Origin: Tissierellales bacterium
GTDB taxonomy: Bacteria; Bacillota; Clostridia; Tissierellales; Sedimentibacteraceae
Assembly (NCBI GenBank): GCA_018433765.1
Contig: JAHDQO010000001.1
Coordinates: 248,001 to 312,000 of the forward strand
DNA: 64,000 nucleotides
Direction of reading: 5' to 3'
Positions 31,475-53,504 of this stretch are shown piece after piece; position 1 is the stretch's first letter, and each line of letters opens with the position of its first letter. A model generated the notes under the pieces. That model was not told the DNA's origin. It did not search any database and saw only the letters and a list, made by a program, of their open reading frames with translations. The translations under genes were made by a program, and so were the position numbers.

Positions 31475-32860
31475 ATGAAAAGATTTTGTATATTAATATC
31501 AATAATACTATGTATAAACCTAACAGCTTGTTCAAATTCAACATATAATAGTAGAAAAACTGAAGCTAGTAATAATAATATATTAACAATTGCAACTTTT
31601 GTAAACTCAAATAATGTTTATTTAGAAAAAGTTGCTCAAAGATTTCAGGAGCTTAATCCAGATATAAAAGTAGAAATAAAAGTTTACGGTAAAGAAATAG
31701 TGAATGAAGTGAAATTAGCAGATGGTGGAATTTATACTACAATAGAAATAAGTAACCAAGAAATTGAGAAGTACAGGTCTATTATTAATACTGAGCTTAT
31801 TAGTGGAATAGCCCCTGATATTATTGATATAGACGAATTAGCCTACAAGAAATATATTGACAGTGGTATGTTTGTAAATATGAGCAAATTAATGAAGGAA
31901 GATACAAGTTTTGATATTAACAATTACAATACAAAAATATTTGAAGCTTTGAAATATAAAGACGGATTATACACTATACCATTAAGTTATTTTATATATT
32001 TAATAACTGGTAACTATAATTTAGAAATTGATGATTCTTATTGGAATTGGCAGGATTTCTTTTCTTCTGCACAAGAAGTGTTAAGTAATGAAGAAAAAAA
32101 TATAAATGCTGAATATATACTCTCTGTAACAGATAAGAAACTATTTGAAAAAATGTTTCAAAGCGAATATGAGAACTTTGTTAATGAAGAAGATAACACT
32201 GCTAATTTTACATCAAAAGAATTCATCAATACAATAAAATACTGTAAGTATTTAGCTGATAATAACATTATCTATAAAACTAGTGAAGATTTATATAGGT
32301 GTACACATAAATTTGAATTAAGTTATATTGATTCAGTTTGGTTGATGGCTTTCGAAGGTACTGATTCATACGCAATAGACAATGCAACAAGATATTATTA
32401 TAAAATGCCATCTAATACTATAAGTAGCGGTGCTATATTTAATTCTTTTAATATGTATGCTATAAATAGTAATTCAAGTAATGAGAAATTGGCTTGGGAA
32501 TTTCTAAAATTTCTGCTTAATGATGAAATGCAGTCATTACCTGAATTATATAATTTTCCTGTTAACAATATATCCTTTAATAAAAAAATTGAAGAAGATT
32601 CAAATATGTATATTGATTATGTTAAATGTTCTAATGAGATTGAGATACCTTTAGAAAAAGCTAATGAAATATTAAAAAATTATACTGAACAAATCAAAGA
32701 ATTTACTTTAAATATAACTACTTGGAAAAATCAAAATCCTGAAATATATAGTATAGTTGACAATTGTGTTGATATGTATTTCTCAGGAGAAAAAACAGCA
32801 GAAGAAATAGCGCAAATTATACAAGATAAAGTATCAATATATCTAAATGAACAAAGTTAG
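31475..32860 (+). CDS. Extracellular solute-binding lipoprotein 1 (family 1 type)
   Basis: 461 residues. Lipoprotein signal MKRFCILISIILCINLTACS with lipobox Cys19, followed by a Ser/Asn-rich linker. The body is a family 1 (sugar-type) ABC solute-binding protein: ILTIATF, FQELNPDIKVEIKVYGKE, IINTELISGIAPDIIDID, KYIDSGMFVNMSKLM, KDGLYTIPLSY, then a C-terminal helix region AEEIAQIIQDKVSIYLNE. A clear paralogue lies at 42127. No permease genes are adjacent; those at 45322 and 46193 share its operator. The ligand is unknown and, given the peptide-modification genes in between, may be a peptide and not a sugar. Confidence 0.88.
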   Translation: MKRFCILISIILCINLTACSNSTYNSRKTEASNNNILTIATFVNSNNVYLEKVAQRFQELNPDIKVEIKVYGKEIVNEVKLADGGIYTTIEISNQEIEKYRSIINTELISGIAPDIIDIDELAYKKYIDSGMFVNMSKLMKEDTSFDINNYNTKIFEALKYKDGLYTIPLSYFIYLITGNYNLEIDDSYWNWQDFFSSAQEVLSNEEKNINAEYILSVTDKKLFEKMFQSEYENFVNEEDNTANFTSKEFINTIKYCKYLADNNIIYKTSEDLYRCTHKFELSYIDSVWLMAFEGTDSYAIDNATRYYYKMPSNTISSGAIFNSFNMYAINSNSSNEKLAWEFLKFLLNDEMQSLPELYNFPVNNISFNKKIEEDSNMYIDYVKCSNEIEIPLEKANEILKNYTEQIKEFTLNITTWKNQNPEIYSIVDNCVDMYFSGEKTAEEIAQIIQDKVSIYLNEQS

Positions 32861-33571: not shown

Positions 33572-34306
33572 ATGAAATACAAAATTTTAATTTGTGATGA
33601 TCAACCTGAACATTTAGATATTTTAGAAAGACATATAATGAACTATTTTAGTACAATTGAAATAAAATACATTTGTAAAAGAGCATTATTAGGAGAGGAA
33701 GCGGTAAAAAAATCCAAACAATATGTTTTTGATATTGCATTCTTAGATATAGAAATGCCTGACATTAAAGGTATAGAAATATCTAAACAATTAAAAATCA
33801 TAAATGAATCTATACTAATTGTATTTGTAACAAGTTATTCAAACTATAGAAAAGAAGCTTTTGATCAATTTGCGTTTAATTATATAGATAAGCCTATAGT
33901 TCCTGATAAATTCTACAGAGTAATTAATAAAGCTCTGAAAAAAGTGAATGAAGAAAGATTTTGGAATGTTAATACAAAGGTTTATAATACTACAATAAAA
34001 GGTGGTATGGTAAGTATAAAATACTATGACATTCTATATTTTGAAAAAAAAGTAAACAATATTTACATCATAACAATTGACAATATATATAAAATACGTA
34101 AAAGTTTTAAAAAATTAGAGCAAGAAATAAATATGGATTATTTTATTAGATGTCACAAAGGATTTATAATAAACAAAAGTAGAATTGAATATAATGCTGG
34201 AAATAATATAATTTTGCATGGAACTAAGAATATAATACCTATTGGAATTACATATAAAGATAAAGTGTTAACAAAGATATCTGAAATGATTAGAGAAAGA
34301 GCATAA
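33572..34306 (+). CDS. LytTR response regulator 1 (AgrA-like)
   Basis: 244 residues. CheY-like receiver with the acidic pair in LICDDQP (Asp9, Asp10), phospho-acceptor Asp59 (AFLDIEMPD), switch Thr in FVTSYSN and Lys in YIDKPI. The LytTR DNA-binding domain follows at about 140-240 (YFIRCHKGFIINKSRIE, NIIPIGITYKDK). GGGAGGG precedes the ATG. It is coupled to the kinase gene, which starts one base after its stop. It is paralogous to the 50125 protein over the whole length. Probable target: the RiPP operon downstream; no AgrD-type signal gene was recognised nearby. Confidence 0.92.
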   Translation: MKYKILICDDQPEHLDILERHIMNYFSTIEIKYICKRALLGEEAVKKSKQYVFDIAFLDIEMPDIKGIEISKQLKIINESILIVFVTSYSNYRKEAFDQFAFNYIDKPIVPDKFYRVINKALKKVNEERFWNVNTKVYNTTIKGGMVSIKYYDILYFEKKVNNIYIITIDNIYKIRKSFKKLEQEINMDYFIRCHKGFIINKSRIEYNAGNNIILHGTKNIIPIGITYKDKVLTKISEMIRERA

Positions 34307-34307
34307 T

Positions 34308-35603
34308 ATGTTTTATGAATTTGTTGAGATATTTGCAAACTTAGTTGATGTAAGTGGTATATATATTGTAGTAAATTCTATTTATATAAAAAAAGAAAAT
34401 TATTCAAAAAAAATTTTTGTAATTTTAATAATTATACAAAGTATTATATTAAGGTATTCAAATGTTATATGGGGGAATGTCAGTATTAAAGTATTTTTAT
34501 TAATATTAATACTAACTTTAGTTATATGTAAAATGTTTTATAAAATCGCAATTTTAAAATTAGTAAAAACAGTAATTTTATATATTATTTCTATGTTTAT
34601 AATAGAAGTAATTATATTTTTTATATTAACATTATTATTTAATTTATCTAGCGGTATTCTATTAGAACAACGAAGCTTATATAGAATTGTTGGAATATTC
34701 ATATCAAAAACTATAGTATTTTTTATGGTAGTAGCAGTAGCAAGATATTTGCAAACAAGAAAAGTAAAAGTTGAGCCATATAGTATATTAGCTCTAATAA
34801 TGATGCTGCTAAGTCTATCAGTATTTTTTATTTCAGCAGACATATATTCATTAACAGATAATGACAATAAAGTAATGTATATAATGATAATAACATCTGT
34901 ATTAGCTATTATAAATATTATTACTTTAATAATAATAAGAAAAGTAATTGAAATCTCAGAAAAAGAAACTACATGGAAATTGACTAAGAAAGAATATCAA
35001 AATCTTGTTGCATATTTAGATAAATATCAAAATCTTCATAATGAAATAAAAGCCTTAAAACATGATTTTACGAATCATATTATAAGTATAAGGGAGATTG
35101 CAGAGAAAGAAAATAATAAAAGTATTATTAAATATACTAAAGAATTATTATATTTAGAAAATGAAATAAGTAAGATTATAGATATAGATAATAAAGTAGT
35201 TTCTGCACTTATTAATTATAAAAATAATTATATTAAAGAAAGAAATATTAAATTTAATTTTAATATTAATATACCAAAAAATACCAATATTGAACATCTA
35301 GACTTAGCTATTATATTAGGAAATTTATTAGACAATGCTATTGAAGCTTGCAGTATTGTACAAGAAAATAAAAGATATATAAATCTAAATATTAAATATA
35401 AGTTTGGCAAAACTAGTATAATAATGGAAAATTCAATGTTAGGAAATATAAAAATGGACAATAATAAAATAATTACTAGCAAAAAAGATAAAGAAAATCA
35501 TGGATATGGATTATTAAATATACGAAGAACTGTTGAAAAATACGAAGGCATAATGAAACTAAAAGATGAAAAGGATAAATTTACTATAGAAATATTAATT
35601 TGA
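34308..35603 (+). CDS. GHKL sensor histidine kinase 1 (AgrC-like)
   Basis: 431 residues. About six membrane segments in the first 210 residues, then a cytoplasmic part with the phospho-acceptor His252 (LKHDFTNHI) and a GHKL ATPase domain (LGNLLDNAIEAC, GYGLLNIRRTVEKY). The layout is that of AgrC-type peptide-sensing kinases. Gene spacing of 1 base to the response regulator shows a single transcript. A short stem AGACC-TAAA-GGTCT with a T run directly after the stop probably ends it. Confidence 0.9.
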   Translation: MFYEFVEIFANLVDVSGIYIVVNSIYIKKENYSKKIFVILIIIQSIILRYSNVIWGNVSIKVFLLILILTLVICKMFYKIAILKLVKTVILYIISMFIIEVIIFFILTLLFNLSSGILLEQRSLYRIVGIFISKTIVFFMVVAVARYLQTRKVKVEPYSILALIMMLLSLSVFFISADIYSLTDNDNKVMYIMIITSVLAIINIITLIIIRKVIEISEKETTWKLTKKEYQNLVAYLDKYQNLHNEIKALKHDFTNHIISIREIAEKENNKSIIKYTKELLYLENEISKIIDIDNKVVSALINYKNNYIKERNIKFNFNINIPKNTNIEHLDLAIILGNLLDNAIEACSIVQENKRYINLNIKYKFGKTSIIMENSMLGNIKMDNNKIITSKKDKENHGYGLLNIRRTVEKYEGIMKLKDEKDKFTIEILI

Positions 35604-35623
35604 GACCTAAAGGTCTTTTTTTA
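35601..35623 (+). terminator. Short terminator after kinase 1
   Basis: AGACC (35603-35607), loop TAAA, GGTCT (35612-35616), then a run of seven T. Short stem, so termination may be partial. Confidence 0.5.
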
Positions 35624-35659: not shown

Positions 35660-35710
35660 TTGACTTGAGAAAATTATATGATAATTTAAACATATAAGTA
35701 TTAAATTATC
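35660..35710 (+). promoter_or_regulatory. Candidate promoter/operator of the RiPP operon
   Basis: TTGACT (35660-35665) with TAATTT 16 nt downstream (35682-35687), a weak -10. A perfect 10-bp inverted repeat GATAATTTAA (35680-35689) / TTAAATTATC (35701-35710) overlaps the -10 box and is a likely regulator site. The sequence upstream (35627-35655) is less AT-rich than its surroundings and could hold an activator site. Confidence 0.45.
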
Positions 35711-35795
35711 ACAATAACTCTAGTACATGTAGTCTATTATTTTTCTATCAATTACAGAAAAATACATAAAAAGCTAAATGCAAGGTGGTGACGAT

Positions 35796-37490
35796 TTGAA
35801 TTATAAAAAAATGTTTTCTTATGCCATTAAACTGGCAAAACCATTTAAATTATTAATAGTTTTATCTATGTTAATGACTATTATAACAATGGGGCTTTAT
35901 GCAGCTATTCCACTTGTAGAAAGAAAAATAGTTGATGAAGGACTTTTAGCAAAAGATTATTATCTTCTTTTACGTTTAGTCATATTTGCTCTGATACTTA
36001 ATATTATTGGGATGATTATTACTTATATACAGTCTAAGATACAAGTTAAAATAGATCTTTCGTGTAAGAGTAAATTAAAATTTGATGTTTTTAGTCACTC
36101 AATAAGATTAAAAATAGGGTATTTAAATAAACATGGCTTGTATAAAATTATAAATGATGCTAATTATGATGCTCAAATTATATGTAGACTTGTTAGTAAC
36201 GAGTTTTTGGGGATAATTATTGAATTTTTGAAAATAGTAGGCTATTTTATAGGTCTTCTGTATATTAATTGGAAGCTTACAATTTTTGTTGTCTTGTTTA
36301 TTCCATTGAAAATTATAATTACAAATGTTTCAGGTAAAATAAGAGAAAAAAAATGTGAAGAATCGTTAGAAATACAAAAAAATTTACATAGATGGCAAGG
36401 CAATACTTTTGATGGTATATATGAAGTTAAATTATGGAATATGTATGAAATAAAAGAAAGAGAATATAGTGAATTATTAAAGAAAAATAATAAAGTTATT
36501 GCTAGTATTTATAGAATAGATGAGTTAGACAGGTTATTTAGTTCAGTAACACAGAAATTATTGTTTAGCTTACTGTATATTATAGCAGGTGCTTTAATTT
36601 GGAAAAATGGACTAACCATTGGTGGATTGTTTGCATTTATAGCATATGCTGGAAACGTATTTTACCCGATAGATTTAGTATCAAGACTTAAATTAATAAG
36701 TGCTGAAATTATACCTTCATTACGAAGCTACGAAGACTTTCTTAAAATGGATGAAGAAGATTTTTCTCTGAACAATAGTTTTAAGTTTTCACCAGAATTT
36801 CCTAAAAGAATTGAATTTAAAGATGTAACAATAGGATATGAGGGAAAAGAAGTTTTAAAAAATATTAATTTATCTTTAGATGAAAATGAAAAAATAGCAT
36901 TAGTTGGAGCAAATGGCAGCGGCAAAACAACATTAATTAATATGTTATTAAGATTTTACACTCCTGAAAAAGGAAAAATACTTATGGATGGAATTGATAT
37001 AAATGAAATACCACTAAAGAACTATAGGGATTTATTTGCAGTAGTGAGTCAATCAGTATATTTATTTAAAGGCAGTATCTGGGAAAATATTACAATGTTT
37101 GAAACTAATAAACCTACAAGTGAAAAAAATTTTAAATTTATTAAAGATAAATTGCTGCATTTTACAAAGAAATTGGAAAATGGATATGATACCCATGTTG
37201 GTATAAATGGTAGATGTGTATCTGGAGGTGAAAAACAAAAAATTGCTTTAGCGAGAGCACTATTAAAAAAGCATGCAAAGATATTAATTTTAGATGAAGC
37301 AACATCAAATTGTGATGTTTTATCTGAGAAAGAAATAGTAAAAATGCTAGAAGAGAATAATTATGATTTCACAATATGTATTACACATAATGTCAATTTG
37401 TTAAAAAACTTTGACAAGATAATATTTATTGATAAAGGACAGGTTATTACAGATAGAAAATATTATGATGGAGTTCTAGAAAATTCATAA
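35796..37490 (+). CDS. ABC exporter (fused membrane and ATPase domains) of the RiPP operon
   Basis: 564 residues from TTG 35796. The upstream ATG at 35778 is rejected because the strong AAGGTGGTGA ribosome site (35782-35791) lies inside that extension. Six membrane segments (about 15-300), then an ATPase domain with Walker A LVGANGSGKTTLIN, signature VSGGEKQKIALARAL and Walker B ILILDEATSN. No C39 peptidase domain is present, so leader removal must be done by another protein, plausibly the S8 peptidase at 40732. Most likely exports the modified Cys-rich peptide. First gene of the operon. Confidence 0.88.
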   Translation: MNYKKMFSYAIKLAKPFKLLIVLSMLMTIITMGLYAAIPLVERKIVDEGLLAKDYYLLLRLVIFALILNIIGMIITYIQSKIQVKIDLSCKSKLKFDVFSHSIRLKIGYLNKHGLYKIINDANYDAQIICRLVSNEFLGIIIEFLKIVGYFIGLLYINWKLTIFVVLFIPLKIIITNVSGKIREKKCEESLEIQKNLHRWQGNTFDGIYEVKLWNMYEIKEREYSELLKKNNKVIASIYRIDELDRLFSSVTQKLLFSLLYIIAGALIWKNGLTIGGLFAFIAYAGNVFYPIDLVSRLKLISAEIIPSLRSYEDFLKMDEEDFSLNNSFKFSPEFPKRIEFKDVTIGYEGKEVLKNINLSLDENEKIALVGANGSGKTTLINMLLRFYTPEKGKILMDGIDINEIPLKNYRDLFAVVSQSVYLFKGSIWENITMFETNKPTSEKNFKFIKDKLLHFTKKLENGYDTHVGINGRCVSGGEKQKIALARALLKKHAKILILDEATSNCDVLSEKEIVKMLEENNYDFTICITHNVNLLKNFDKIIFIDKGQVITDRKYYDGVLENS

Positions 37491-37504
37491 GGAGGAAAAG
37501 AGTA

Positions 37505-38899
37505 ATGATTATTTATAAAACATTTAAAACACCTTTGGCATTTTATGTATATGATAGAAATACTAATACGATTTTAAGAATTAATCAGGAAGAATATAAT
37601 AACTTGAAAAAAGCAGAAAATAATTCAAATGACATACAACCTAAGTTATTGGAAAAATTTCAAGTAAAAGGTTATTTAAAAGAAGATGTTGTAGAAAAAA
37701 TAGAACACCCTCAATTACCAATTTTAGAACATTATTTGAATCATAGAATATCTCAATTAGTTCTTCAAGTAACTCAAAAATGTAATTTGCGCTGTAGTTA
37801 TTGCGTTTATTCAGGAACCTATGAAAACAGGGTGCATTCTAATGCAGAAATGGATTTTGAAACAGCAAAAAGAGCAATTGATTTTCATCATGAACATTCA
37901 GATGAGCTTGATGAAGTTACAGTTGGATTCTATGGTGGTGAACCCCTGTTGCGTTTGGATTTAATTAAAGACTGTGTTAACTATATATCCAACAAAATAG
38001 AGGGTAAAAAAATATCATATTCTATAACTACTAATGGGACGTTATTAGATTATGATACAATGAAATTTTTAATAGATAATAATTTTAATGTATTAGTTAG
38101 TCTTGATGGACCAAAAAAGGAACATGATGAAAATAGAAAATTTGCGAATGGAAAAGGATCCTTTGATACTATAATGAATAATATATCACGGATAAAACAA
38201 TATAATCCTGATTTTATAAAAAAAATTAGTTTTAATACTGTTATTAATCCAAAACACAATTATACGTGTATAAAAAATTACTTTGAAACAGATGAGGTTA
38301 TTTCTGATGTTGATGTTGCTATGAATGTAGTTGAGACCTTGAAGTCTAAAGAAAATATTGTTTTTCAGGATATGTTTTATATTGCTAGAGCATATGACTA
38401 TTTTAAATTACTTTTAGCATTGATAAAGAAAATTGATATGAAATATGTTACAAAATTACTTCGTGTACAGCAGGTTAGTATTAATGAGAGATATAAAAAC
38501 TTAAAGGATACTACAAGTATAGGGAAAGTAGTTCATCACGGTGGTCCATGTATTCCAGGCTCTAGAAAACTTTTCGTATCAGCAACAGGAGAATTCTATC
38601 CGTGTGAGAGAGTTTCTGAAAGTTCCAAAATCATGAATATTGGAGATATTGATAGAGGTATTGATCTAGTAAAATCTAGAAAAATATTGAATATTGGCGA
38701 ATTAACAAAAGATAATTGTAGAAAATGCTGGGCACTTCCAAATTGTATGATGTGTGTTGCTATGGCAGATGGAGGGAACATGCTATCTAAGAAAAAAAAG
38801 CTTTTTCATTGCAGAGAGTCTATCAGTGAAGTCCTTTACAATTTAAAAGAACTCTGTATGCTACAAGAATTTGGTTATAATTTTATAGAGGAGGTGTAG
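37505..38899 (+). CDS. SPASM radical SAM peptide maturase (CLI_3235/CcpM-like)
   Basis: 464 residues. The radical SAM cluster motif CxxxCxxC is at Cys93, Cys97, Cys100 (QKCNLRCSYC), followed by FYGGEPLLR and SITTNGTLL. The C-terminal SPASM/twitch region holds many cysteines (GGPCIPG, FYPCERV, NCRKCWALPNCMMC, HCRES) for auxiliary 4Fe-4S clusters. The first ~75 residues look like a small peptide-recognition domain. It resembles the Cys-rich peptide maturases of the CLI_3235 class from Clostridium (recalled family). Expected to install carbon-sulfur (thioether) links on the cysteines of the precursor at 40419. AGGAGG precedes the ATG. Confidence 0.9.
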   Translation: MIIYKTFKTPLAFYVYDRNTNTILRINQEEYNNLKKAENNSNDIQPKLLEKFQVKGYLKEDVVEKIEHPQLPILEHYLNHRISQLVLQVTQKCNLRCSYCVYSGTYENRVHSNAEMDFETAKRAIDFHHEHSDELDEVTVGFYGGEPLLRLDLIKDCVNYISNKIEGKKISYSITTNGTLLDYDTMKFLIDNNFNVLVSLDGPKKEHDENRKFANGKGSFDTIMNNISRIKQYNPDFIKKISFNTVINPKHNYTCIKNYFETDEVISDVDVAMNVVETLKSKENIVFQDMFYIARAYDYFKLLLALIKKIDMKYVTKLLRVQQVSINERYKNLKDTTSIGKVVHHGGPCIPGSRKLFVSATGEFYPCERVSESSKIMNIGDIDRGIDLVKSRKILNIGELTKDNCRKCWALPNCMMCVAMADGGNMLSKKKKLFHCRESISEVLYNLKELCMLQEFGYNFIEEV

Positions 38900-39985
38900 A
38901 TGATGGAAAAAATATTAATATTTCCTTTTAATTATGAAAATTATTATTTTGCAACACATAAACATTTATTACAGGATTTTGAACTCAAAAGTTTCATATG
39001 TGTTAAGAATTCTCCGTTTTTAGGAAAAGATGCTGGGTTCATTGTGGACAAGCAAACCAATATAATAATTTCTGATGATTATGATAAAGAAATTAAAGTA
39101 TGTGATATAGTCTTATTGCTTGACGGTTTAGAGAATGATTTTCTTAACTTATATATAGATAAAATTAAAACTGCTAAACGTTTTAACAAGAAGATTATTG
39201 TTACAAGAAGTATTTATAATAAATTGCTAGATAATGGTTCTTTACATGATGATATAGAGGTTATGGGTAATGAAGACATTGTTAAAGAAGATATTAGGGA
39301 TGAAGGAGTTAATTTGTTTGATATTGATATTCCTGTGGTTAGTGTTATGTCATTAGGTGATAGATGTAATAAATTTGATTTACAGCTTGATATAGGACAA
39401 GTATTTAAAAACAATAAGTTTAATGCTTTACAAATTGGTACCAAAGAATTTTGTCAGCTTTTTGGATTATATCAACTACCTCTGTTTCTATATTCACATG
39501 ATATTTCACTAGTTGATAAAATAGTAAAATTAAATCATTTTATTTATAGATTGTTAGAAAAAGAAAATTATGATGTAATAATTGTTGGAGCTAGTGGAGG
39601 AATAATGCCTTACAATAAATATGTATATAATTATTTCAGCGAAATTCCGTATATTATTTCACAAGCATTAAAAATAGATATTAATATACTAAGTTTATAT
39701 TTTAATAAAGATTTAAACAAAGAATTTCTTCAAGAATTAAGAGTATACTGCAAAAATAAATTCAACTGCATAACAGATTATTTTAATATATCAAATATTA
39801 AATTAAAGTATGATTACGAATTAAATCATGAACAATTTTTTTATTTAACAAAACCATATGTTCTAGACAATTTTCCAAATATAGCAGAGGATAATTTATA
39901 TACATTTAATCAAGTATACAATGTAAATTCATCAATTTTAAATAGTATAGTAAGTGAGTTATATACTAATTTAGATGCTGTTTAA
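38900..39985 (+). CDS. Peptide maturation system protein, TIGR04066-like
   Basis: 361 residues, cytosolic, no cofactor motif that I can name. The N-terminal half starts MEKILIFPFNYENYYFATH, and the C-terminal half has a Rossmann-like strand YDVIIVGASGGIMPYN. The order radical SAM, this gene, acyl-carrier-like protein and Cys-rich peptide matches the clostridial system whose protein is called TIGR04066 (recalled, not checked). Function unknown. Tandem ATGs at 38900 and 38903; the second is 8 nt from AGGAGG and may be the real start. It begins directly after the maturase stop, so expression is coupled. Confidence 0.8.
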   Translation: MMEKILIFPFNYENYYFATHKHLLQDFELKSFICVKNSPFLGKDAGFIVDKQTNIIISDDYDKEIKVCDIVLLLDGLENDFLNLYIDKIKTAKRFNKKIIVTRSIYNKLLDNGSLHDDIEVMGNEDIVKEDIRDEGVNLFDIDIPVVSVMSLGDRCNKFDLQLDIGQVFKNNKFNALQIGTKEFCQLFGLYQLPLFLYSHDISLVDKIVKLNHFIYRLLEKENYDVIIVGASGGIMPYNKYVYNYFSEIPYIISQALKIDINILSLYFNKDLNKEFLQELRVYCKNKFNCITDYFNISNIKLKYDYELNHEQFFYLTKPYVLDNFPNIAEDNLYTFNQVYNVNSSILNSIVSELYTNLDAV

Positions 39986-40032
39986 TATTTTCATATAAGT
40001 ATAATTATAGTTGCAAAACATTATAAAAAGGT

Positions 40033-40078
40033 GAAAGGTGGTGTAAATTACATGACTTGTTAAGGTTACAAGATCATG
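40033..40078 (+). promoter_or_regulatory. Hairpin and displaced ribosome site upstream of the carrier-protein gene
   Basis: GAAAGGTGGTG (40033-40043) is a strong ribosome site but is followed only by a 3-codon frame (ATGACTTGTTAA, 40051-40062). That frame lies in a hairpin: CATGACTTGT (40050-40059) pairs with ACAAGATCATG (40068-40078), one A bulged. The carrier-protein ATG at 40088 has no clear ribosome site of its own, so its translation may depend on coupling to the mini-frame or on refolding. Confidence 0.5.
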
Positions 40079-40087
40079 TAGCAATTT

Positions 40088-40348
40088 ATGAATAAAAGTG
40101 AAATTGAAAAGATTATTATTGAAGGTATTAAGGAGATATCAGATATAAATATTGAGAATAAAGATTTAAACTTATTTTCTCGTTCTTGTGGTATTTCACC
40201 AATAGATCTTATTTATATAAAAGATTATATTGAAAAGAAAATAAATAAAGATATTTCTAAAATATTCGTTAGCTATGATTATAATGTTTTAACTGTCCAT
40301 AATTTAACTGATGCAATTATTTCTTGTAAAAATAGTTTAACAGCTTAA
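40088..40348 (+). CDS. Acyl-carrier-related protein of the peptide maturation system
   Basis: 86 residues, acidic and helical, resembling acyl carrier proteins (IEKIIIEGIKEISDINIENK...SRSCGISPIDLIYIKDYIEKK...TVHNLTDAI). The carrier motif is altered: GISPIDLIYI stands where DSL/DSI is usual, and the Ser followed by Pro-Ile-Asp-Leu may or may not accept phosphopantetheine. Such carrier-related proteins occur in the CLI_3235-class clusters (TIGR04069-type, recalled). It lies directly before the precursor gene. It may shuttle an acyl group or simply act as a scaffold; unknown. Confidence 0.78.
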   Translation: MNKSEIEKIIIEGIKEISDINIENKDLNLFSRSCGISPIDLIYIKDYIEKKINKDISKIFVSYDYNVLTVHNLTDAIISCKNSLTA

Positions 40349-40418
40349 AAGTATGTATAAATTTGCAAAGTGTTACAATATTGCAATTTTATAAATGTTA
40401 ATGAAAGGGGGAAGTATA

Positions 40419-40604
40419 ATGAAAAAACTTTTTAAAAGAAACGAAGTAGTTAATAATACTATAGAAGCCTTTGAAGCAAAAGCATATTGTTTTTGTGAAT
40501 GTGTTTGTAAGTGTGGATGCGATGCTACTCCAAAAGCTACATATGGTGCAAATGGAAGCGCTTCTTACTATAGTAGTAAACATTCAAAAGTAGAGAATAG
40601 TTAA
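40419..40604 (+). CDS. RiPP precursor peptide with six alternating cysteines
   Basis: 61 residues from ATG 40419, which has AAAGGGGGAAG upstream. The leader-like part (1-23, KKLFKRNEVVNNTIEAFEAK) is followed by YCFCECVCKCGCD with cysteines at 24, 26, 28, 30, 32 and 34, every second residue, then a Gly/Ser/Tyr/Lys-rich tail (35-61). A strict CxCxCxCxCxC array next to a SPASM radical SAM enzyme marks a substrate for thioether cross-linking. It resembles CLI_3235 (Clo7bot) Cys-rich peptides. A strong hairpin follows the stop, which should make this message abundant relative to the peptidase gene. Confidence 0.9.
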   Translation: MKKLFKRNEVVNNTIEAFEAKAYCFCECVCKCGCDATPKATYGANGSASYYSSKHSKVENS

Positions 40605-40619
40605 CTGCGAAAAGATGTG

Positions 40620-40660
40620 GAACATAGTTTATTTAATAAACTATGTTCTAACATTTTTTT
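40620..40660 (+). terminator. Attenuator between precursor and S8 peptidase genes
   Basis: Near-perfect 29-nt palindrome with 14-nt arms GAACATAGTTTATT (40620-40633) and AATAAACTATGTTC (40635-40648) and one central base, followed by TAACATTTTTTTATTT. Likely a partial terminator that gives high precursor and lower peptidase expression. Confidence 0.8.
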
Positions 40661-40731
40661 ATTTAGATAAAATGTTATCTATTGATTTTTTTACTATTTT
40701 TTCAATATATATTAAAGGAATGAATATTAAT

Positions 40732-41937
40732 ATGAATAAAACAAAAGTTATTATAATAGATGATGGTATTAATTTAACTAGCATTAGCAAGTATGTAAAA
40801 AAAGTAGATACATATGAAGTTAAAGAAAAAAAAGTAATAAAATATAACTCAGAAGAGACACTTATAACACATGGGTCAAAGTGTGCGGCTATATTTACTT
40901 CTTATGCAAAGCAATTTGAACTTATAAGTTTAAAAGTTATGGATAATAAAGCAAAGACAAATATAAACTACTTGATAATAGCACTTGAATGGTGTCTAAA
41001 CAATGATATTAAACTAATAAGCTTAAGTATTGGTTCTAGTTTTTTTCTAGATTATGATAAATTGAAACCTATTGTAGATAAACTTATTAAAAAAGGAGTT
41101 ATAATTGTTGCAGCAAACAACAATAATAATAAATTAACTTATCCTGCTGCAATTAGTGGAGTTATTGGTGTTAGATGTGATAATAGTAATAAACTAAAGT
41201 GTAAAGAATACAGTTATAATAAAGATGATATGTTTGGAATAGAAGTAACAGCAGCAAGTTTTTCGGAAGAATTCAAAGATTTAAATATTAAAAATCATAA
41301 TAGTTATATAACACCATATATAGCAGCCTTAGTTTGTAATTACATTGGTGAAGGTATAGATAAACTAGAAGAAATTCATAAAGAATTACAAAAAGGATCT
41401 AAGAAAGATTATATTTATACATTTTCTATACAAAAACCTATGAAAATTCTAGATGATTTTAAAAATGATATTTACATATCAAATGAATTCAGTATTTGTA
41501 ATAAATATAGTGATATTGAACCTTTGAACATATCTGTAACGGGTAGTGTTGATGACATAATAAATAATGAATTTGTTATACAGTTAGTAGAAATTTTCAG
41601 GAAAGAAGGTTTTAATGCAATTGTTATAACAGATTGTAAATTGTATAATGAAATTTATTGCTTTACTTTAGATAACAACAAGAATAATTGTGAAACAAAT
41701 GAAAATTTTGTTGGCAAGTATAAATTAATTCAAGAAGTAACAAATCCAGATATAGTTTTTTTAATTTTTAATAACTATAATATAACTTCATCCTTTAATA
41801 TCCAAATTGATTGTTTTCTAAAAATAAATAAAGAAACTAATTATAAAATACAGCTTCAAACTACTGAAAGTAAAGTTAATTATAAGCTTGAAGATGTTAA
41901 GGAATTGTACAATAAAATATTAAAAGAATATTCATAA
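40732..41937 (+). CDS. S8 (subtilisin-like) peptidase of the RiPP operon
   Basis: About 401 residues from ATG 40732 (AAAGGA 12 nt upstream; an ATG at 40720 abuts it too closely). The S8 triad is present: Asp10 (IIIDDGI), His47 (THGSKCA) and Ser191 (HNSYITPYIAAL, in place of GTSMAxPHVAA), with the oxyanion Asn in VAANNN (about 129). No signal peptide is visible, so it acts in the cytosol or is exported by another route. After residue ~210 comes a 190-residue C-terminal domain of unknown type (SVTGSVDDIINN...FVIQLVEIFRKEGF). Probably cleaves the leader of the Cys-rich peptide. Confidence 0.85.
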   Translation: MNKTKVIIIDDGINLTSISKYVKKVDTYEVKEKKVIKYNSEETLITHGSKCAAIFTSYAKQFELISLKVMDNKAKTNINYLIIALEWCLNNDIKLISLSIGSSFFLDYDKLKPIVDKLIKKGVIIVAANNNNNKLTYPAAISGVIGVRCDNSNKLKCKEYSYNKDDMFGIEVTAASFSEEFKDLNIKNHNSYITPYIAALVCNYIGEGIDKLEEIHKELQKGSKKDYIYTFSIQKPMKILDDFKNDIYISNEFSICNKYSDIEPLNISVTGSVDDIINNEFVIQLVEIFRKEGFNAIVITDCKLYNEIYCFTLDNNKNNCETNENFVGKYKLIQEVTNPDIVFLIFNNYNITSSFNIQIDCFLKINKETNYKIQLQTTESKVNYKLEDVKELYNKILKEYS

Positions 41938-42126: not shown

Positions 42127-43440
42127 ATGAAAAAATTATGTATATTTATATCATTAATACTATGTATAAACCTTACAGCTTGTTTTGATTCTACAAATAA
42201 AAGTAAAGAAACTCAATCAAGTAGTAGTAATATATTAACCATTGCTACGTTTGAAGATTTACATAATTATTATTTAGAGGAAGCAGTTAAAAAATATAAT
42301 GAAAATAATCCAGATACAAAAGTAGAAATAATAGTTTATGGAAGTTCAATAGAGGGTGAAGATAAAGTTGAAAAGTATAGATCTACAATTAATACTGAAC
42401 TCATGAGTGGAAAAGCACCAGATATTATTGATTTGAAAGATATCCCATATAAAAAATATATAGATAGCGGTATGTTAGTTAATATAAGTGAATTGATGAA
42501 GGAAGACGATAGTTTTAATATTAATAATTATAATACTAATATATTTGAAGCGTTAAAGTATAAAGATGGATTATATACTATACCATTGGGTTATATAATA
42601 CGGCTAATAACAGGTAACTGTGATTTAAAAATCAATAATGATAAGTATAGTTGGCAAAACTTTATTGATTCTATTATTAGAGAATCGAATATTAAAGAAT
42701 ATGTATTTTGCGAAACGGATATTAACCTTTTTAATCGAATTTTTCGTAGTGAATATAAATATTTTGTTAACGAAGAAGACAAAACTTCTAGTTTTACATC
42801 AAAAGATTTTATTAATATATTAGAATATTGTAAAAAATTGTCTAATGAAAAAATTATCTATAAAACTGGAGAAGATTTGGATAATGCTGCATCAACATTT
42901 CAATTTTTCGGTACAAACTCATTTAAATTTATACCTTTATTAGCAAGTGATACATATGCTCAAGAAAATAAAATAAGACATTATTACAAATTTCCTTCAA
43001 ACTATGCAGATAGTAGTGCTTCGTGTAGTTTTTTTAATATGTATGCTATAAATAACAACTCAAATAATAAAGAGATGGCTTGGAAATTTATTAAATTTAT
43101 GCTCTCTGATGAAATGCAAGCATCACCTAATTTATTATCCTTTCCTGTAAACAATGCAGGTTTTGAAAAAAAGATTGAAAGTGAATCACAAGATTACATT
43201 AATGATATTAAAGAAACTAATAAAATTTCTTTAGATAAAGCTAATGAACTATTAGCAGATTATACAGAACAATTTAAACAAATTGCTTCAAGTATGACTA
43301 ATTGTACTGATATAGATATAGAGATACTTAATATAGTTATGGAATATGCAGAAATGTTTTTTACAGAACAAAAAACAGCAGAAGAAACTGCACAAATCAT
43401 ACAGAATAAAGTTTCAATATATTTGAATGAACAACTATAA
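42127..43440 (+). CDS. Extracellular solute-binding lipoprotein 2
   Basis: 437 residues, paralogue of the 31475 protein. Signal peptide MKKLCIFISLILCINLTACF with lipobox Cys19. The family 1 solute-binding body shares whole blocks with the paralogue (ILTIATF, KYIDSGMLVNISELMKED, FEALKYKDGLYTIPLGY, FNMYAINNNS, QIIQNKVSIYLNEQ). A fragment of this gene is copied at 32907-33066. It may work with the permeases at 45322 and 46193, with which it shares an operator, although agcS separates them. Confidence 0.88.
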   Translation: MKKLCIFISLILCINLTACFDSTNKSKETQSSSSNILTIATFEDLHNYYLEEAVKKYNENNPDTKVEIIVYGSSIEGEDKVEKYRSTINTELMSGKAPDIIDLKDIPYKKYIDSGMLVNISELMKEDDSFNINNYNTNIFEALKYKDGLYTIPLGYIIRLITGNCDLKINNDKYSWQNFIDSIIRESNIKEYVFCETDINLFNRIFRSEYKYFVNEEDKTSSFTSKDFINILEYCKKLSNEKIIYKTGEDLDNAASTFQFFGTNSFKFIPLLASDTYAQENKIRHYYKFPSNYADSSASCSFFNMYAINNNSNNKEMAWKFIKFMLSDEMQASPNLLSFPVNNAGFEKKIESESQDYINDIKETNKISLDKANELLADYTEQFKQIASSMTNCTDIDIEILNIVMEYAEMFFTEQKTAEETAQIIQNKVSIYLNEQL

Positions 43441-47187: not shown

Positions 47188-48453
47188 ATGAGCAATGTAG
47201 AAAATGCAGTGAATAAGAAGCATATTAAAAAAACAATAAAGATATTTGTTATAACAATAATATTTTTAACCTTTTTTTCTAATACCATAAATAACTTTAT
47301 GCTGCCTCAAGTAGAAACAATATATGTTAATAGTGGAAATTTAGTAAAAACAGTAGATGGTAAAGGTATTGTAGAAGCAAAACAAACTTATGAATTCTAT
47401 ATTAAATCATCTATTAAAGTACTTGAAATAAACACAGAAGCAGGAGAGTTTGTAAAAAAAGGTCAGACAATTATGACACTAGATAAAACAGAATTACAAA
47501 GCCAGCTTGAAGACTCTTTAATAATATTAGAACAGAAAAAAATTTCTCTTAAAAAACTAGAAAATGCAAGCAGTGAGCTAAAACAAAAATATAAGGTAAA
47601 CATAGAAAATGCAGAAAAAGAAACTGCTAAATGTCAGGAAGACTTAAATATAGCAAAAAAACTTTATGAAGAACATATAGTAACAAAAGAAGAAATGCAG
47701 AAGTCAGAAGAAAAATTAGAAACAGCAAATAAAAATTACAGCGATCTACAATTACAAAAAGAAATAGATATAAAAAACAATGAATTAGATATTAAAAATA
47801 CAAAACTTGATATACAGTTAAAACAAAATGACATTGATTCTATAAAAGAAGAATTAAATACTATAAATAAAATCACAGCACCAACAGATGGTATAATAAA
47901 AGAAATAAACTTTGCAAAAGGTTCAATAGCCAATTCATCAAAACCATTATTTAAGATGACAGATATAAACAGTGGTTTTGAGTTAAAAATCACTGTAGAT
48001 AAAAGTAAATCTTTTTACATAGCAGTAGGTGATAAAGCAAAAGTAAATATAACATCACTAGGAGGAAAGGAACTAGAAGGTACAATTACAAATATCACAG
48101 ATAATAAGGAGAACATTGAAGATAAAAAAGAGATATATATAAATCTTCAATCAGAAGATTTAAAAGGAGGAGAACAGGCAAAACTTCATATACAAAAAGA
48201 ATCACAAAGATATGATATGCTCGTTCCAAATGAAGGTATAAGAAAAGATAGCAATGGCTATTATGCACTTATATTAAAAGAAAAAGATGGAGTATTCGGA
48301 AAAGAATATTACGTTGAAAAATCAATGATATATTGTGATGGATCTGACAATAAAAATACAGCAGTCACAAATGGATTATTCCCCCTAGATAAAGTAGTAA
48401 TAAAAAGCAGTAAACCAATATCACCAGGCTGCAGAGTAAAGCTGATGGATTAA
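47188..48453 (+). CDS. HlyD/RND-type adaptor protein (MacA/YknX-like)
   Basis: 421 residues. A single N-terminal membrane segment (about 15-34), then a lipoyl half (VNSGNLVKTVDGKGIVEAKQ...INTEAGEFVKKGQTIMTLD), a long coiled-coil hairpin (about 100-225), the second lipoyl half (ITAPTDGIIKEINFAKGS) and beta-barrel domains. MacA/YknX-like adaptors work with MacB-type ABC permeases. In Bacillus subtilis YknWXYZ protects against the SDP toxin, so an immunity or export role next to the RiPP genes is a fair inference. GGAGATAA precedes the start. Confidence 0.87.
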   Translation: MSNVENAVNKKHIKKTIKIFVITIIFLTFFSNTINNFMLPQVETIYVNSGNLVKTVDGKGIVEAKQTYEFYIKSSIKVLEINTEAGEFVKKGQTIMTLDKTELQSQLEDSLIILEQKKISLKKLENASSELKQKYKVNIENAEKETAKCQEDLNIAKKLYEEHIVTKEEMQKSEEKLETANKNYSDLQLQKEIDIKNNELDIKNTKLDIQLKQNDIDSIKEELNTINKITAPTDGIIKEINFAKGSIANSSKPLFKMTDINSGFELKITVDKSKSFYIAVGDKAKVNITSLGGKELEGTITNITDNKENIEDKKEIYINLQSEDLKGGEQAKLHIQKESQRYDMLVPNEGIRKDSNGYYALILKEKDGVFGKEYYVEKSMIYCDGSDNKNTAVTNGLFPLDKVVIKSSKPISPGCRVKLMD

Positions 48454-48469
48454 TAATGGAGATTAAAAT

Positions 48470-49861
48470 ATGAAAAAAAATAATTGTTCATCATGGATAT
48501 TAATAATAATTAGCGTCTTTCTAATAACATCAAGTATAATATTAAATAATTCACTTATATTAAAATCACAGAATATAAACAAAATACAAACAACTAATAA
48601 AATAAGTGTAAAAATAAAAAGTTATGCACAATTAAATGACAATAGTGTATTTACTTATGATGATATAGAAAAGCTACAAGATATATTACAAAGCGATATT
48701 ACATATACAGCAAATACAGAAACAGTAATAAAAGACAGCATAAAAAGTATTAATGCAGACATTGTAGGAACAAACTATAGATTCATAGATTTTTATACAA
48801 TAAATTTTAGAGATGGATACTTCTTTACAGAAGCAGACGAAGAAGAAAATGAATATAGAGCAGTAATAGATGAAAAATTAGCATGGGAACTATTTGGTAA
48901 TCTACAAGTAGCAGGAAATACAATTAAGATATTAGGAAGAGAATTTACGATAGCAGGAGTAATATCAAAGGACAACACAATAATAGGTAAGATTTCATCA
49001 TCAGATGATAAAAATATATATATTCCATTTAAAATTTTAAATGGATTAGATAAAGAAGCAAAAATATCATCTATACAAATAAAAATGCCAGAAGCACAAA
49101 TTATAGAAAACAATGCTATTACAATAAAAAAAGCACTTAGCACCATAGAAAAATTACCAGAAAATTATGACATCATAGACTACAGCATAAAGAACACATT
49201 AATAGAGCAAAAACTTCTAATAACAACATTTATTTTAGGTTTAATATGTATAATAATTATAATAAAACATTTAATAAAAACAGCAAAACAAACATATAAC
49301 TTCATAAAAATTCAGACAAAAAAAGATTACTTAACAAACATACTAAAAAATAGCTATAAAACAATACTAAAAATAATGGTTAAGATAATAGCTTTGATAA
49401 TGTGTATATATATACTGTTTAAGATAATAAAGTTTAATATATACATACCAACAGATAGAATACCTAAGGAATTAATAGACATAAATTTCTTTGGAGAATT
49501 AATAAAAAAAAGTATACTAAACTCAACTTCAAACACATCATATGCATTAAAGATATGGGAAATACAGCAAAACATAATAGAAAGATTCGTAAACATACTC
49601 TTTTATATATTAATATTAGCAATACCGTTGATGTATTTAGGATTAAATCAATTAAGGATGAAAAAAGTTTCATATGATAAAGTGGTTACAAAAATAAGCA
49701 TAGCATTTATACTATCAATAATCATATCAACATTATTTATAATATTGACAAATATGCCTCTACAATTAAATACACTTAGTTTATTTATTTTGTATTTATT
49801 TTTTATGTTAAATACAATTGCAGTTTTAGAAAAATGTGAAGAAAAAATTATTGTAGTATAA
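48470..49861 (+). CDS. MacB-core permease-like membrane protein
   Basis: 463 residues. One membrane segment near 10-28, an extracellular domain (about 30-245) with MacB periplasmic-core features (RAVIDEKLAWELFG, NTIKILGREFTIAGVI, YDIIDYSIKN), then about four or five C-terminal membrane segments. The layout is close to MacB/FtsX permeases but without an ATPase domain, and the four-helix FtsX part is divergent. It probably pairs with the adaptor gene 16 bases upstream. The ATPase (a MacB/YknY type) is not encoded nearby. Very A-rich codons. Confidence 0.75.
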   Translation: MKKNNCSSWILIIISVFLITSSIILNNSLILKSQNINKIQTTNKISVKIKSYAQLNDNSVFTYDDIEKLQDILQSDITYTANTETVIKDSIKSINADIVGTNYRFIDFYTINFRDGYFFTEADEEENEYRAVIDEKLAWELFGNLQVAGNTIKILGREFTIAGVISKDNTIIGKISSSDDKNIYIPFKILNGLDKEAKISSIQIKMPEAQIIENNAITIKKALSTIEKLPENYDIIDYSIKNTLIEQKLLITTFILGLICIIIIIKHLIKTAKQTYNFIKIQTKKDYLTNILKNSYKTILKIMVKIIALIMCIYILFKIIKFNIYIPTDRIPKELIDINFFGELIKKSILNSTSNTSYALKIWEIQQNIIERFVNILFYILILAIPLMYLGLNQLRMKKVSYDKVVTKISIAFILSIIISTLFIILTNMPLQLNTLSLFILYLFFMLNTIAVLEKCEEKIIVV

Positions 49862-50124: not shown

Positions 50125-50850
50125 ATGGAATATAAGTTTTTAATTTGTGATGATCAGCCTTTACATTTAGACATTTTAGAAAGAAATTTAGGAAATTATT
50201 TAAATGCAAAAAATATTAATTATATGTGTAAGAGAGCAGAAACAGGAAAAGAAGTAATAAAACAATTTAAACAGTATGAATTTAATATTATATTTTTAGA
50301 TATAGGATTGCCTGACATGAAAGGTACAGATATATCTAAGAAATTAAGAAATATAAATAAAGATGTACTGATAATATTTGTAACAAGCTATGATAACTAT
50401 AAAACAGAAGCTTTCAAACAGTTTGCATTTAATTATATTGACAAACCTATAAATGTAGATGAGTTTAATGAAATAATGGACAAAGCTTTAGAAAAGATTA
50501 ATATGAGAAATTATTATATAAATGAACATAAAAAAATAAAATTAGAAACAACAGACAAAGTAATAGAACTATACTTTAAAGATATATTATACTTTGAATC
50601 AAAAGGTAAGAATTCACTAGCATATACTTATGATAATAAAAAATATCTTGTTAAGCTATTGTTTAAGGAATTAGAGAATGTTTTAGATAATAGTAATTTC
50701 TTAAAATGCCATAGAAGTTATATTATTAATATAAATAAAGTAGCTTGCTTCAATACTACAACTATAAAATTAATAAATTTAGAAAGAGAAATTCCTATAG
50801 GCAGAAAATTTAAAGAAAACGTATTTAGTATAATAGATAAAAAGATATAG
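50125..50850 (+). CDS. LytTR response regulator 2 (AgrA-like)
   Basis: 241 residues, full-length paralogue of the 33572 protein. Acidic pair Asp9/Asp10 (LICDDQP), phospho-acceptor Asp59 (IFLDIGLPD), FVTSYDN, YIDKPI, then a LytTR domain (NFLKCHRSYIININKVACF, EIPIGRKFKENVF). GAGGTG precedes the start. It probably binds the 21-bp direct repeat at 52155-52188 upstream of the secreted-protein gene; that target is inferred from spacing typical of LytTR sites. Confidence 0.92.
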   Translation: MEYKFLICDDQPLHLDILERNLGNYLNAKNINYMCKRAETGKEVIKQFKQYEFNIIFLDIGLPDMKGTDISKKLRNINKDVLIIFVTSYDNYKTEAFKQFAFNYIDKPINVDEFNEIMDKALEKINMRNYYINEHKKIKLETTDKVIELYFKDILYFESKGKNSLAYTYDNKKYLVKLLFKELENVLDNSNFLKCHRSYIININKVACFNTTTIKLINLEREIPIGRKFKENVFSIIDKKI

Positions 50851-50861
50851 AGAACATTTAC

Positions 50862-52148
50862 ATGTATAACGTATTTAAAATATTAGCTAATGTTGTAGAT
50901 ATTGGGGCTGTATATTACATAAATAATAAATTTTTTAATAAGAAAGATACGTATAAATTCGAATATATAGTAGTACTTACAATAATACAAAGCAAAATGA
51001 TGATATATATAAATATATTTGAAGGTTGTACAGGTTTATTAAATTTTATGTTTATAATTGTGACTAGTTTTGTAGTAAGTTATATATTTTATGATATAAA
51101 AATTAGAAAGTTTTTTATATTAATTTTTTCATATATATTAATATTACTCATATTGGATGTAAGTACAACTGTATTTTTAATAGAAGTATTTAAACTTCCT
51201 AAAGACTATTTACTATTAAGCAATGTATATAAAGTAATTACAATTATTATAATTAAATTTCTACAGATAATTATTATATTAGGTATGATAGCATTCTACA
51301 AGAAAAAAGAAATTAAAAATAAGTTATATGCTTATCAAATTATTTTCATACTTGTAATAAATATTCTAATACTATTATTTATTTTAAAGATACTTTCTAT
51401 CAAAATTTACAGCATACAAAATGAAGAAATATTTATTGCAGTAATAATAATAGTTATTAGTTTTATATCAATAATTATAATAAGAAAGATAATAGATTAT
51501 TCAACCAAAGAATTTTACTGGAAACTAACAGAAAAAGAATATAAAAATCAAATTAAATATTACAAAAATTATATATGTATGTTAAATGAACTAAGAGTTT
51601 TAAAACATGATTTCAATAATCACATAATCAATTTAAAAGAGTACATGTCCAATAAAGAATACAGCAAAGCATTATTATATACGGACAATTTAATATCGGA
51701 AGTTAAGAAAGCTGATAAAATAATTAAAATAGATAATGAAACTTTCTCGGTACTCATAAATTACAAATATTGTATAATGAATAAGAATAAAATTAAATTT
51801 GATTATTATATAAATGTTCTACAAGATATCCATATAAAAGCTACAGATATGACTATTATATTAGGAAACGCTCTAGATAATGCAATAGAGGCATGTAAAA
51901 AAGTTTCAATTAATAAGAGATTTATATATATGAAAGCTAATTACGGTATGGGTAAGTTAAAAATAGTGATTAAAAATTCTAAGGTTAATAAATTAAAATA
52001 CAAAAATGGAAAAATAATCACATCTAAAAATAATAAAATAGAGCACGGACTTGGTATTGATAACATATATAGAGTAGTTAATAAATATTATGGACAAGTA
52101 ACTATAAATGAAATAGAAGATGTATTTACAATAAAAATAATTATTTAA
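50862..52148 (+). CDS. GHKL sensor histidine kinase 2 (AgrC-like)
   Basis: 428 residues, paralogue of the 34308 kinase. About six membrane segments to residue ~210, phospho-acceptor His249 (LKHDFNNHI), and a GHKL ATPase domain (LGNALDNAIEACKK, GLGIDNIYRVVNKYYG). It starts 11 bases after the response regulator. The ligand is unknown. The membrane domains of the two kinases are more diverged than their catalytic parts, as expected if they sense different signals. Confidence 0.9.
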   Translation: MYNVFKILANVVDIGAVYYINNKFFNKKDTYKFEYIVVLTIIQSKMMIYINIFEGCTGLLNFMFIIVTSFVVSYIFYDIKIRKFFILIFSYILILLILDVSTTVFLIEVFKLPKDYLLLSNVYKVITIIIIKFLQIIIILGMIAFYKKKEIKNKLYAYQIIFILVINILILLFILKILSIKIYSIQNEEIFIAVIIIVISFISIIIIRKIIDYSTKEFYWKLTEKEYKNQIKYYKNYICMLNELRVLKHDFNNHIINLKEYMSNKEYSKALLYTDNLISEVKKADKIIKIDNETFSVLINYKYCIMNKNKIKFDYYINVLQDIHIKATDMTIILGNALDNAIEACKKVSINKRFIYMKANYGMGKLKIVIKNSKVNKLKYKNGKIITSKNNKIEHGLGIDNIYRVVNKYYGQVTINEIEDVFTIKIII

Positions 52149-52457: not shown

Positions 52458-53504
52458 ATGAAAAAATTAATAAGTTTTATACTAGTGTTTAGCTTAATTA
52501 TAACTGTACCAGTTTTTGCAAAAGAATCAACAAAATTAAATTTAGATGAAAGAAATTTAAAAGAAAATATTAAAACATTGCAGGATATAGATGTATATTT
52601 AACAGAAGCAAATGATACTTTTTTAGAAAAAGTAACAACTACTAAAATTGAAGAACTTAATAAAGTCTTACCAAAGTATAATTTAGAAAATAAAAATATT
52701 TATAACGGTATAAATAACATAATAAAATTAGAATCTAAACAAAAACAAACTTTAATTAATAAAAGAATACTTGATAATACCATTGAGCAAATAGAAGTTT
52801 TACAGGAAAAAAATATTAAAGTTAAATCAGTTAATGTAATTTTACCTGTAGATAGTAGTGAAAATATTTTACAAAGTAAAAGTAGTGAAGATGATTTTTA
52901 TAATATTTCTAAACCATGGGGATACAGTGATGGATTCAATTTTAGATATTTTTATACAAGTATTGAAGTTGAAAGTGGAGAGGTTGATTTAGTTGATAAA
53001 TATGGTACGAATGCTGTAAGTATTCTTGGAAGAAATCTAGTAGAATTTGCTGTATCAGAAATAATAGGGAGTGCATTGGGTGATTTGGCTACATATTTAG
53101 ACTTGCTATCTAATATATTTAGTGATTTTAGTAATTTAAATGTTACAATTGATACAGCAAATGAGGAAAAATTATGCTATAATTTTGATGGTGTTATAAA
53201 TTATAAAAATATTGTAATTGAAGATATTGATAATAAAATTGATGGGTATACTTATTATCCATGGGGTTTTATCTCAAAAATTAATGGAAACCAAAATTAT
53301 AGACATGTATATAATGTTGAAGAGCCAGGAGGATCTTTAAAGAGAAAAACTGAATATACTGAAGGTGAAGATGTAGATGAGAAAACAAGTGGATTTAGTG
53401 ATGCCTTTAATGTTTTTGATAATACTATTGAATATTATAATTATTTAGGATACCATCAATATATTGAAGAAATTAATTATAAAATTAATTTTAAAAAAGA
53501 TTAA
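52458..53504 (+). CDS. Secreted protein of unknown family (paralogue A)
   Basis: 348 residues. A cleavable signal peptide MKKLISFILVFSLIITVPVFA precedes a Lys/Glu-rich helical region (25-120). A beta-rich C-terminal part follows (PWGYSDGFNFRYFYTSIEVE; KIDGYTYYPWGFISKINGNQ; NVEEPGGSLKRKTEYTEG). AGAAGGAGG precedes the ATG. It shares its C-terminal half with the next gene. I do not recognise the family. Expression from a promoter with LytTR-like repeats next to TCS 2 suggests it is an output of that system, perhaps an effector or immunity factor. Confidence 0.75.
   Translation: MKKLISFILVFSLIITVPVFAKESTKLNLDERNLKENIKTLQDIDVYLTEANDTFLEKVTTTKIEELNKVLPKYNLENKNIYNGINNIIKLESKQKQTLINKRILDNTIEQIEVLQEKNIKVKSVNVILPVDSSENILQSKSSEDDFYNISKPWGYSDGFNFRYFYTSIEVESGEVDLVDKYGTNAVSILGRNLVEFAVSEIIGSALGDLATYLDLLSNIFSDFSNLNVTIDTANEEKLCYNFDGVINYKNIVIEDIDNKIDGYTYYPWGFISKINGNQNYRHVYNVEEPGGSLKRKTEYTEGEDVDEKTSGFSDAFNVFDNTIEYYNYLGYHQYIEEINYKINFKKD

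Follow-up and report, generated by a model that had tools for sequence, protein, structure and literature searches.

A CLI_3235/CcpM-family peptide operon with strictly alternating precursor cysteines in a Tissierellales bacterium

What kind of product is made from a small precursor peptide in which six cysteines occupy every second residue? The question is raised by an operon in a 64,000-nucleotide stretch of a Tissierellales bacterium genome (hereafter, the window; contig JAHDQO010000001.1, positions 248,001 to 312,000). We consider it highly probable that this operon makes a thioether-linked, bacteriocin-like RiPP of the CLI_3235/CcpM family.

Gene content and family membership

A preliminary description of this DNA had listed six RiPP genes on one strand, and the open reading frame coordinates and domain matches bear out that order, with all six genes on the + strand. 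The gene set for a small Cys-rich modified peptide is complete. The features are as follows.

33572..34306, + strand, LytTR-type response regulator (Pfam Response_reg and LytTR)
34308..35603, + strand, GHKL (AgrC-like) sensor histidine kinase (Pfam HATPase_c_5)
35602..35617, + strand, intrinsic terminator separating the two-component pair from the RiPP operon (terminator scan)
35778..37490, + strand, ABC exporter with membrane and ATPase domains (Pfam ABC_membrane and ABC_tran)
37505..38899, + strand, CcpM radical SAM/SPASM peptide maturase (TIGR04068, 611.2 bits)
38900..39985, + strand, TIGR04066 peptide maturation protein (TIGR04066, 285.8 bits)
40088..40348, + strand, acyl-carrier-related (carrier-like) protein, TIGR04069-like (ACP fold by profile and model)
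40419..40604, + strand, CLI_3235-family precursor peptide, 61 aa (TIGR04065, 35.7 bits)
40618..40657, + strand, terminator/attenuator hairpin 3' of the precursor gene (hairpin 40618-40650 plus T-run; terminator scan, folding energy)
40732..41937, + strand, probable start at 40720 or 40732, S8 (subtilisin-like) peptidase (Pfam Peptidase_S8, E 8e-10)

The precursor (40419-40604; MKKLFKRNEVVNNTIEAFEAKAYCFCECVCKCGCDATPKATYGANGSASYYSSKHSKVENS) follows a ribosome-binding site, AAAGGGGG, at 40404-40411, and is divided into a leader (~residues 1-20), a Cys block (24-34) and a tail (35-61). Its translation confirms Cys at positions 24, 26, 28, 30, 32 and 34, i.e., at every second residue of the block. 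The scores against the curated NCBIfam models were above the cut-offs for the precursor (TIGR04065, CLI_3235 family bacteriocin precursor; 35.7 bits, cut-off 26), the maturase (TIGR04068, CcpM; 611.2 bits, cut-off 500) and the protein at 38900-39985 (TIGR04066; 285.8 bits, cut-off 200). The CLI_3235 kinship proposed earlier is thereby borne out, and by sequence the peptide is a further member of this already recognised family. Clo7bot, also named as a candidate family, was ruled out by a maturase score of 62.8 against TIGR04334 (cut-off 600). The carrier-like protein reached 17.7 bits against TIGR04069, below the cut-off of 70, although an iterated profile links it to its relatives. This shortfall is a point against our explanation, and it would favor reading the operon as an inactive relic or a set of chance open reading frames. 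Such a reading is hardly credible, as the frames are all intact, the catalytic residues are kept, and curated family models are passed, which argues against chance; the operon is a well-formed and probably functional member of the CLI_3235/CcpM family.

The maturase has the radical SAM CxxxCxxC motif (Cys93/97/100) and seven Cys in the SPASM region (349, 367, 405, 408, 414, 417 and 436), all of which are invariant among 11 relatives. Outside its own family its best scores are to thioether-forming families, though these stay below the cut-offs of the PapB (NF047865; 206, cut-off 340) and SCIFF (TIGR03974; 142, cut-off 425) models, and its nearest solved structure is 5wgg, the thioether-forming SCIFF maturase CteB.

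For the TIGR04066 protein, an AlphaFold2 model (pLDDT 93, pTM 0.91) was compared with solved structures using Foldseek. The best matches were DUF1611 proteins (2g0t, E 4e-8, TM 0.61; 2obn), followed by DgcN and dethiobiotin synthetase. The predicted fold is DUF1611/dethiobiotin-synthetase-like, and its P-loop is degenerate. K158 is kept, and Phe follows it in place of Ser/Thr, so the 38900-39985 protein has no intact Walker A motif; among relatives, the Lys is found in 53 of 61 and Phe replaces Ser/Thr in 50 of 61. The H+-ATPase or immunity function guessed for SacE does not fit this predicted fold and P-loop. The carrier-like protein has an ACP fold by profile (E 1e-5) and model (pLDDT 90.7), with Pro in its GISPID site where the phosphopantetheine Ser is expected. 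The absence of this Ser speaks against carrier chemistry. The column is mostly non-Ser across 111 family members (44 Pro, 31 Ala and 16 Ser), and a binding or scaffold protein is therefore more likely than a carrier.

The S8 peptidase had been listed with a start at 40615, which we correct. The resulting 440-aa frame would read through the hairpin at 40618-40650, a strong terminator structure behind the precursor stop (-23.5 kcal/mol, z -8.75, with a T-run after it), and its subtilase homology starts only at about residue 40, so the probable start of translation is 40720 or 40732. A hairpin in this place may allow production of more precursor than peptidase. The Asp, His, Asn and Ser of the subtilase site are all present (Asp and His in 58 of 58 aligned relatives, Ser in 56 of 58), making it plausible that this peptidase removes the leader. 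A C39 leader peptidase domain was absent among the Pfam matches of the ABC exporter (35778..37490).

The two-component pair and the RiPP operon lie between genes for two solute-binding lipoproteins (31475-32860 and 42127-43440; 54% identical), an arrangement that suggests insertion between duplicated genes. Further downstream, HlyD-like and MacB-like (MacB_PCD) membrane proteins are encoded at 47188-49861, where the list of open reading frames shows no adjoining ATPase gene; they could be part of an immunity or export pump. The neighboring look-alike proteins at 52458-53504 and 53602-54531 match no Pfam family and have a signal or membrane segment at the N-terminus.

Cysteine spacing across the family

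Maturase searches in same-order, same-class and named genomes were used to build profiles, and these yielded 109 distinct precursors, the window's included. A single-sequence scan of genome contigs found no relatives; the alignment-based search recovered them. At least four Cys were present in 98 of the 109 precursors; the leader is conserved across the set and the core is hypervariable. Systems from Ruminiclostridium, Lachnospiraceae, Paenibacillus, Tissierella and others share the leader, maturase, TIGR04066 protein and carrier-like protein with the window; unlike the window's, their cores mostly mix CxC with longer spacings. Among 117 non-redundant maturase loci, many of which are truncated, 100 had the carrier-like protein and 107 the TIGR04066 protein.

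At least six alternating Cys (hereafter, a ladder) were detected in six of the 109 precursors, namely those of the window, L089, L090 (two), L100 and L136, and a second, hold-out sample added four ladders from two genomes (L249 and L250). The uniqueness implied by the preliminary description does not survive these four other main-set and two hold-out loci, nor the seven strictly alternating Cys of the SacP23 precursor. When the ladder label was placed on a tree of 111 maturases, five changes were needed, at least three of them forced by well-supported branches; ladder precursors, unusual but recurrent in the family, are scattered over the tree. The five nearest relatives of the window's maturase (~46% identity) have precursors with 12-13 of the first 18 residues in common, no ladder and unrelated Cys spacing. 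Conservation of the Cys in homologues, on which the earlier reading had been made to depend, thus holds for their abundance and fails for their spacing.

Of all Cys spacings, 60% were spacings of two (23% by permutation) and 0.4% were adjacent Cys, CC (31% by permutation). Dealing the family's spacings at random gave 3.8 expected ladders against the 6 observed (P 0.16), which speaks against the ladder as a specially selected type. It is an extreme of the CxC preference seen throughout the family, not a separate kind.

Several loci have more than one precursor. One CcpM maturase, at L059:5800-8800, is preceded by at least five short precursors in tandem, each with 3-4 Cys, and two or three different precursors lie in a row at L107:2932-3635, L158:2998-3620 and L090:12770-13245, which suggests that one CcpM maturase serves several cores. 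Distant CcpM-like maturases were detected in genomes of Aminicenantes, Syntrophobacteraceae and Anaerolineaceae (L160, L165 and L167), and no TIGR04066 or carrier-like gene was found in the flanking DNA examined there. The search for plasmid-borne copies gave no precursor match, and four plasmids carry only maturase relatives of 31-52% identity.

The window's own genome encodes a second CcpM-type system on contig C33 (L052:7720-9480; 39% identical), whose CLI_3235-like precursor has diverged (21.8 bits, cut-off 26). The same contig has a RiPP-like cluster with precursors of repeated GCGCxC units, e.g., MKILRNNQILHNVTKYAGGTGCGCDCEKGKGCGCTCRTGAGCGCSCANGVNCGCGCMT (L053:699-875, 6986-7213 and 7434-7571, - strand). 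Its maturase is closest to RumMC but scores 468 bits against a cut-off of 720, and the GCGCxC peptides matched no NCBIfam family.

SacP23, regulation and the role of the product

The closest studied member is SacP23, from a CLI_3235-family cluster of Paenibacillus polymyxa #23 (PMC10731318). Its precursor is given in table 2 of that paper as MRKLVKRSTNVGDTIEAFGCGCSCYCPCSCYCAGSLTRSSNTSRESDGSYRRDNGTGIGN, and the "sacti5" of strain Kp10 is the same precursor in a copy that ends in a final Y (PMC7343975). Residues 20-61 with this Y were recomputed to 4455.8 Da and pI 7.73, equal to the published values, which indicates that the sequence is the right one. The cloned cluster was expressed in B. subtilis; the product inhibits S. 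aureus including MRSA, B. cereus and vancomycin-resistant E. faecalis, its N-terminus is blocked, and an m/z of 3404 was reported (PMC10731318).

SacP23 resembles the window in its 61-aa precursor, KRSTNVGDTIEAF leader and strictly alternating Cys, and in having an ABC exporter, a TIGR04068 maturase, a TIGR04066 protein, a TIGR04069 protein (only TIGR04069-like in the window) and a subtilase. It differs in the number of Cys (seven instead of six), in its core, and in the position of its precursor gene, which is listed first (23sacA) and not near the operon end. Its cluster lists a sigma factor and sacG in place of a LytTR/GHKL pair, and the SacP23-related L100 maturase branches elsewhere in the tree than that of the window. 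Together with the family models, the likeness to SacP23 supports the earlier description of a RiPP operon with a SPASM maturase and a bacteriocin-like product, and antibacterial activity of the product is fairly likely.

The LytTR/GHKL pair (33572-35603) is directly upstream of the operon, with its own terminator in between, and probably switches the operon on. Related regulators were detected by profile near 26 of the 117 related maturases. No direct repeats for a LytTR site were found ahead of the operon. A second LytTR/GHKL pair is encoded at 50125-52148, its kinase being 37% identical to that upstream of the operon.

The AgrC/AgrA-like genes immediately upstream, and the presence of regulators close to roughly one in four related loci, could also mean that the operon makes a quorum signal for the adjoining pair to sense and not a bacteriocin. 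A signaling role fits the regulator genes as well as a bacteriocin role does. Given that the same pair architecture controls many bacteriocins, that most related loci have no adjoining pair in the flanking DNA examined, and that SacP23 is antibacterial, we regard a signal as rather unlikely.

Tail length and the destination of the cysteines

In the proposed mechanism, the precursor would be bound via its conserved leader (KKLxKR...NTIEAF), and CcpM would link the six Cys by thioethers to the Ser/Asn/Thr/Ala/Tyr-rich C-terminal tail, most likely with one acceptor per Cys, nested as in a hairpin. The TIGR04066 and Ser-less carrier-like proteins would assist maturation or act as scaffolds, the subtilase would cut off the leader, the ABC exporter would release the product, and the two-component pair probably turns the operon on. 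That the Cys are joined by thioethers at all is, in our view, very likely; for nested acceptors in the tail we put the chances at about even.

No linkage of any CcpM product was reported in the literature searched, which counts against this proposal. The tail offers a lead. Across the 109 precursors, the length of the tail behind the Cys block rises with the number of Cys (Spearman 0.83), by about four residues per Cys in precursors with at least three, and independent contrasts on the maturase tree retain the relation (r 0.715, p 3e-14; sign agreement 57 vs 11). With Cys number held, the span of the Cys block added nothing in this first set (partial 0.14, p 0.14). The hold-out sample contained 26 new precursors, of which 18 were non-redundant and dissimilar to the first set; two starts were corrected by hand, the profile match having run into upstream sequence. 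These 18 gave a correlation of 0.89, with an R2 of 0.58 for the frozen prediction and a slope of about three. The relation between tail length and Cys number is thus solid. Block span predicts tail length in the hold-out about as well as Cys number does, so simple size scaling stays a live alternative as its cause.

One tail acceptor per Cys, nested as in hairpin sactipeptides, would suit this relation. The sactipeptides thurincin H and subtilosin A likewise have a Cys half followed by an acceptor half, a SPASM radical SAM maturase and antibacterial activity; they differ in Cys spacings of at least three, in their maturase families, and in having no TIGR04066 or carrier-like protein. A more specific version, which we think quite unlikely, staples a Cys strand to tail acceptors about four residues apart, zipping an extended strand to a helical segment; here the pattern would be C34-A40, C32-A44, C30-A48, C28-S52, C26-S56 and C24-N60. 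Every second residue of a strand and every fourth of a helix both give a pitch of ~6-7 A, and we know of no such topology among sacti- or ranthipeptides. A weak period-4 signal in the tails (p about 0.03) was found post hoc and did not recur in the hold-out sample. The reported SacP23 mass matches none of the seven-Cys fragments that keep their C-terminus, allowing up to seven 2-Da losses, and several fragments fit when the mass is reinterpreted. The product is trimmed, then, or the 3404 peak is something else; the mass leaves the linkage unsettled and points to trimming, and either outcome sits badly with acceptors along the whole tail.

Each Cys could instead be linked locally to a neighboring or intervening residue, forming small rings along the strand, which is the ladder of cross-links that the preliminary description had in mind. 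The ranthipeptides freyrasin (PapB) and SCIFF/thermocellin (CteB) also combine a Cys-rich precursor with a SPASM radical SAM enzyme, their maturases are recognisable CcpM relatives, and the intervening residues here (F, E, V, K and G) could act as acceptors. Their Cys spacing differs from the window's, and the window's maturase is below their cut-offs. Sactipeptides are defined by thioethers from the Cys sulfur to an alpha-carbon, ranthipeptides by thioethers to a beta- or gamma-carbon. Most ladder-type cores have small or variable intervening residues with no conserved acceptor, and local rings need no scaling of the tail with Cys number, yet scaling is seen; we hold sacti- or ranthipeptide-like local links to be rather improbable. 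It is less probable still that the Cys are free, in disulfides or metal-bound, with CcpM making another modification (epimerisation, a C-C link or other). CxC is a metal-binding motif in metallothioneins, and no structure of a CcpM product was found; on the other side stand the near absence of CC, the blocked N-terminus of SacP23, and the conserved Cys richness together with a dedicated SPASM maturase that scores next-best to thioether-forming families.

Widespread among anaerobic Firmicutes, the CcpM family has at least one antibacterial product and no linkage map in the literature searched. The predicted DUF1611-like fold and the lost carrier Ser are the first handles on the two accessory proteins. 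With one and the same leader, CcpM evidently takes very different Cys spacings, a tolerance that would help in the production of cross-linked peptides. Because tail length follows Cys number, the destination of each Cys becomes directly testable, and the six-Cys ladder of this Tissierellales bacterium is a simple substrate for doing so.
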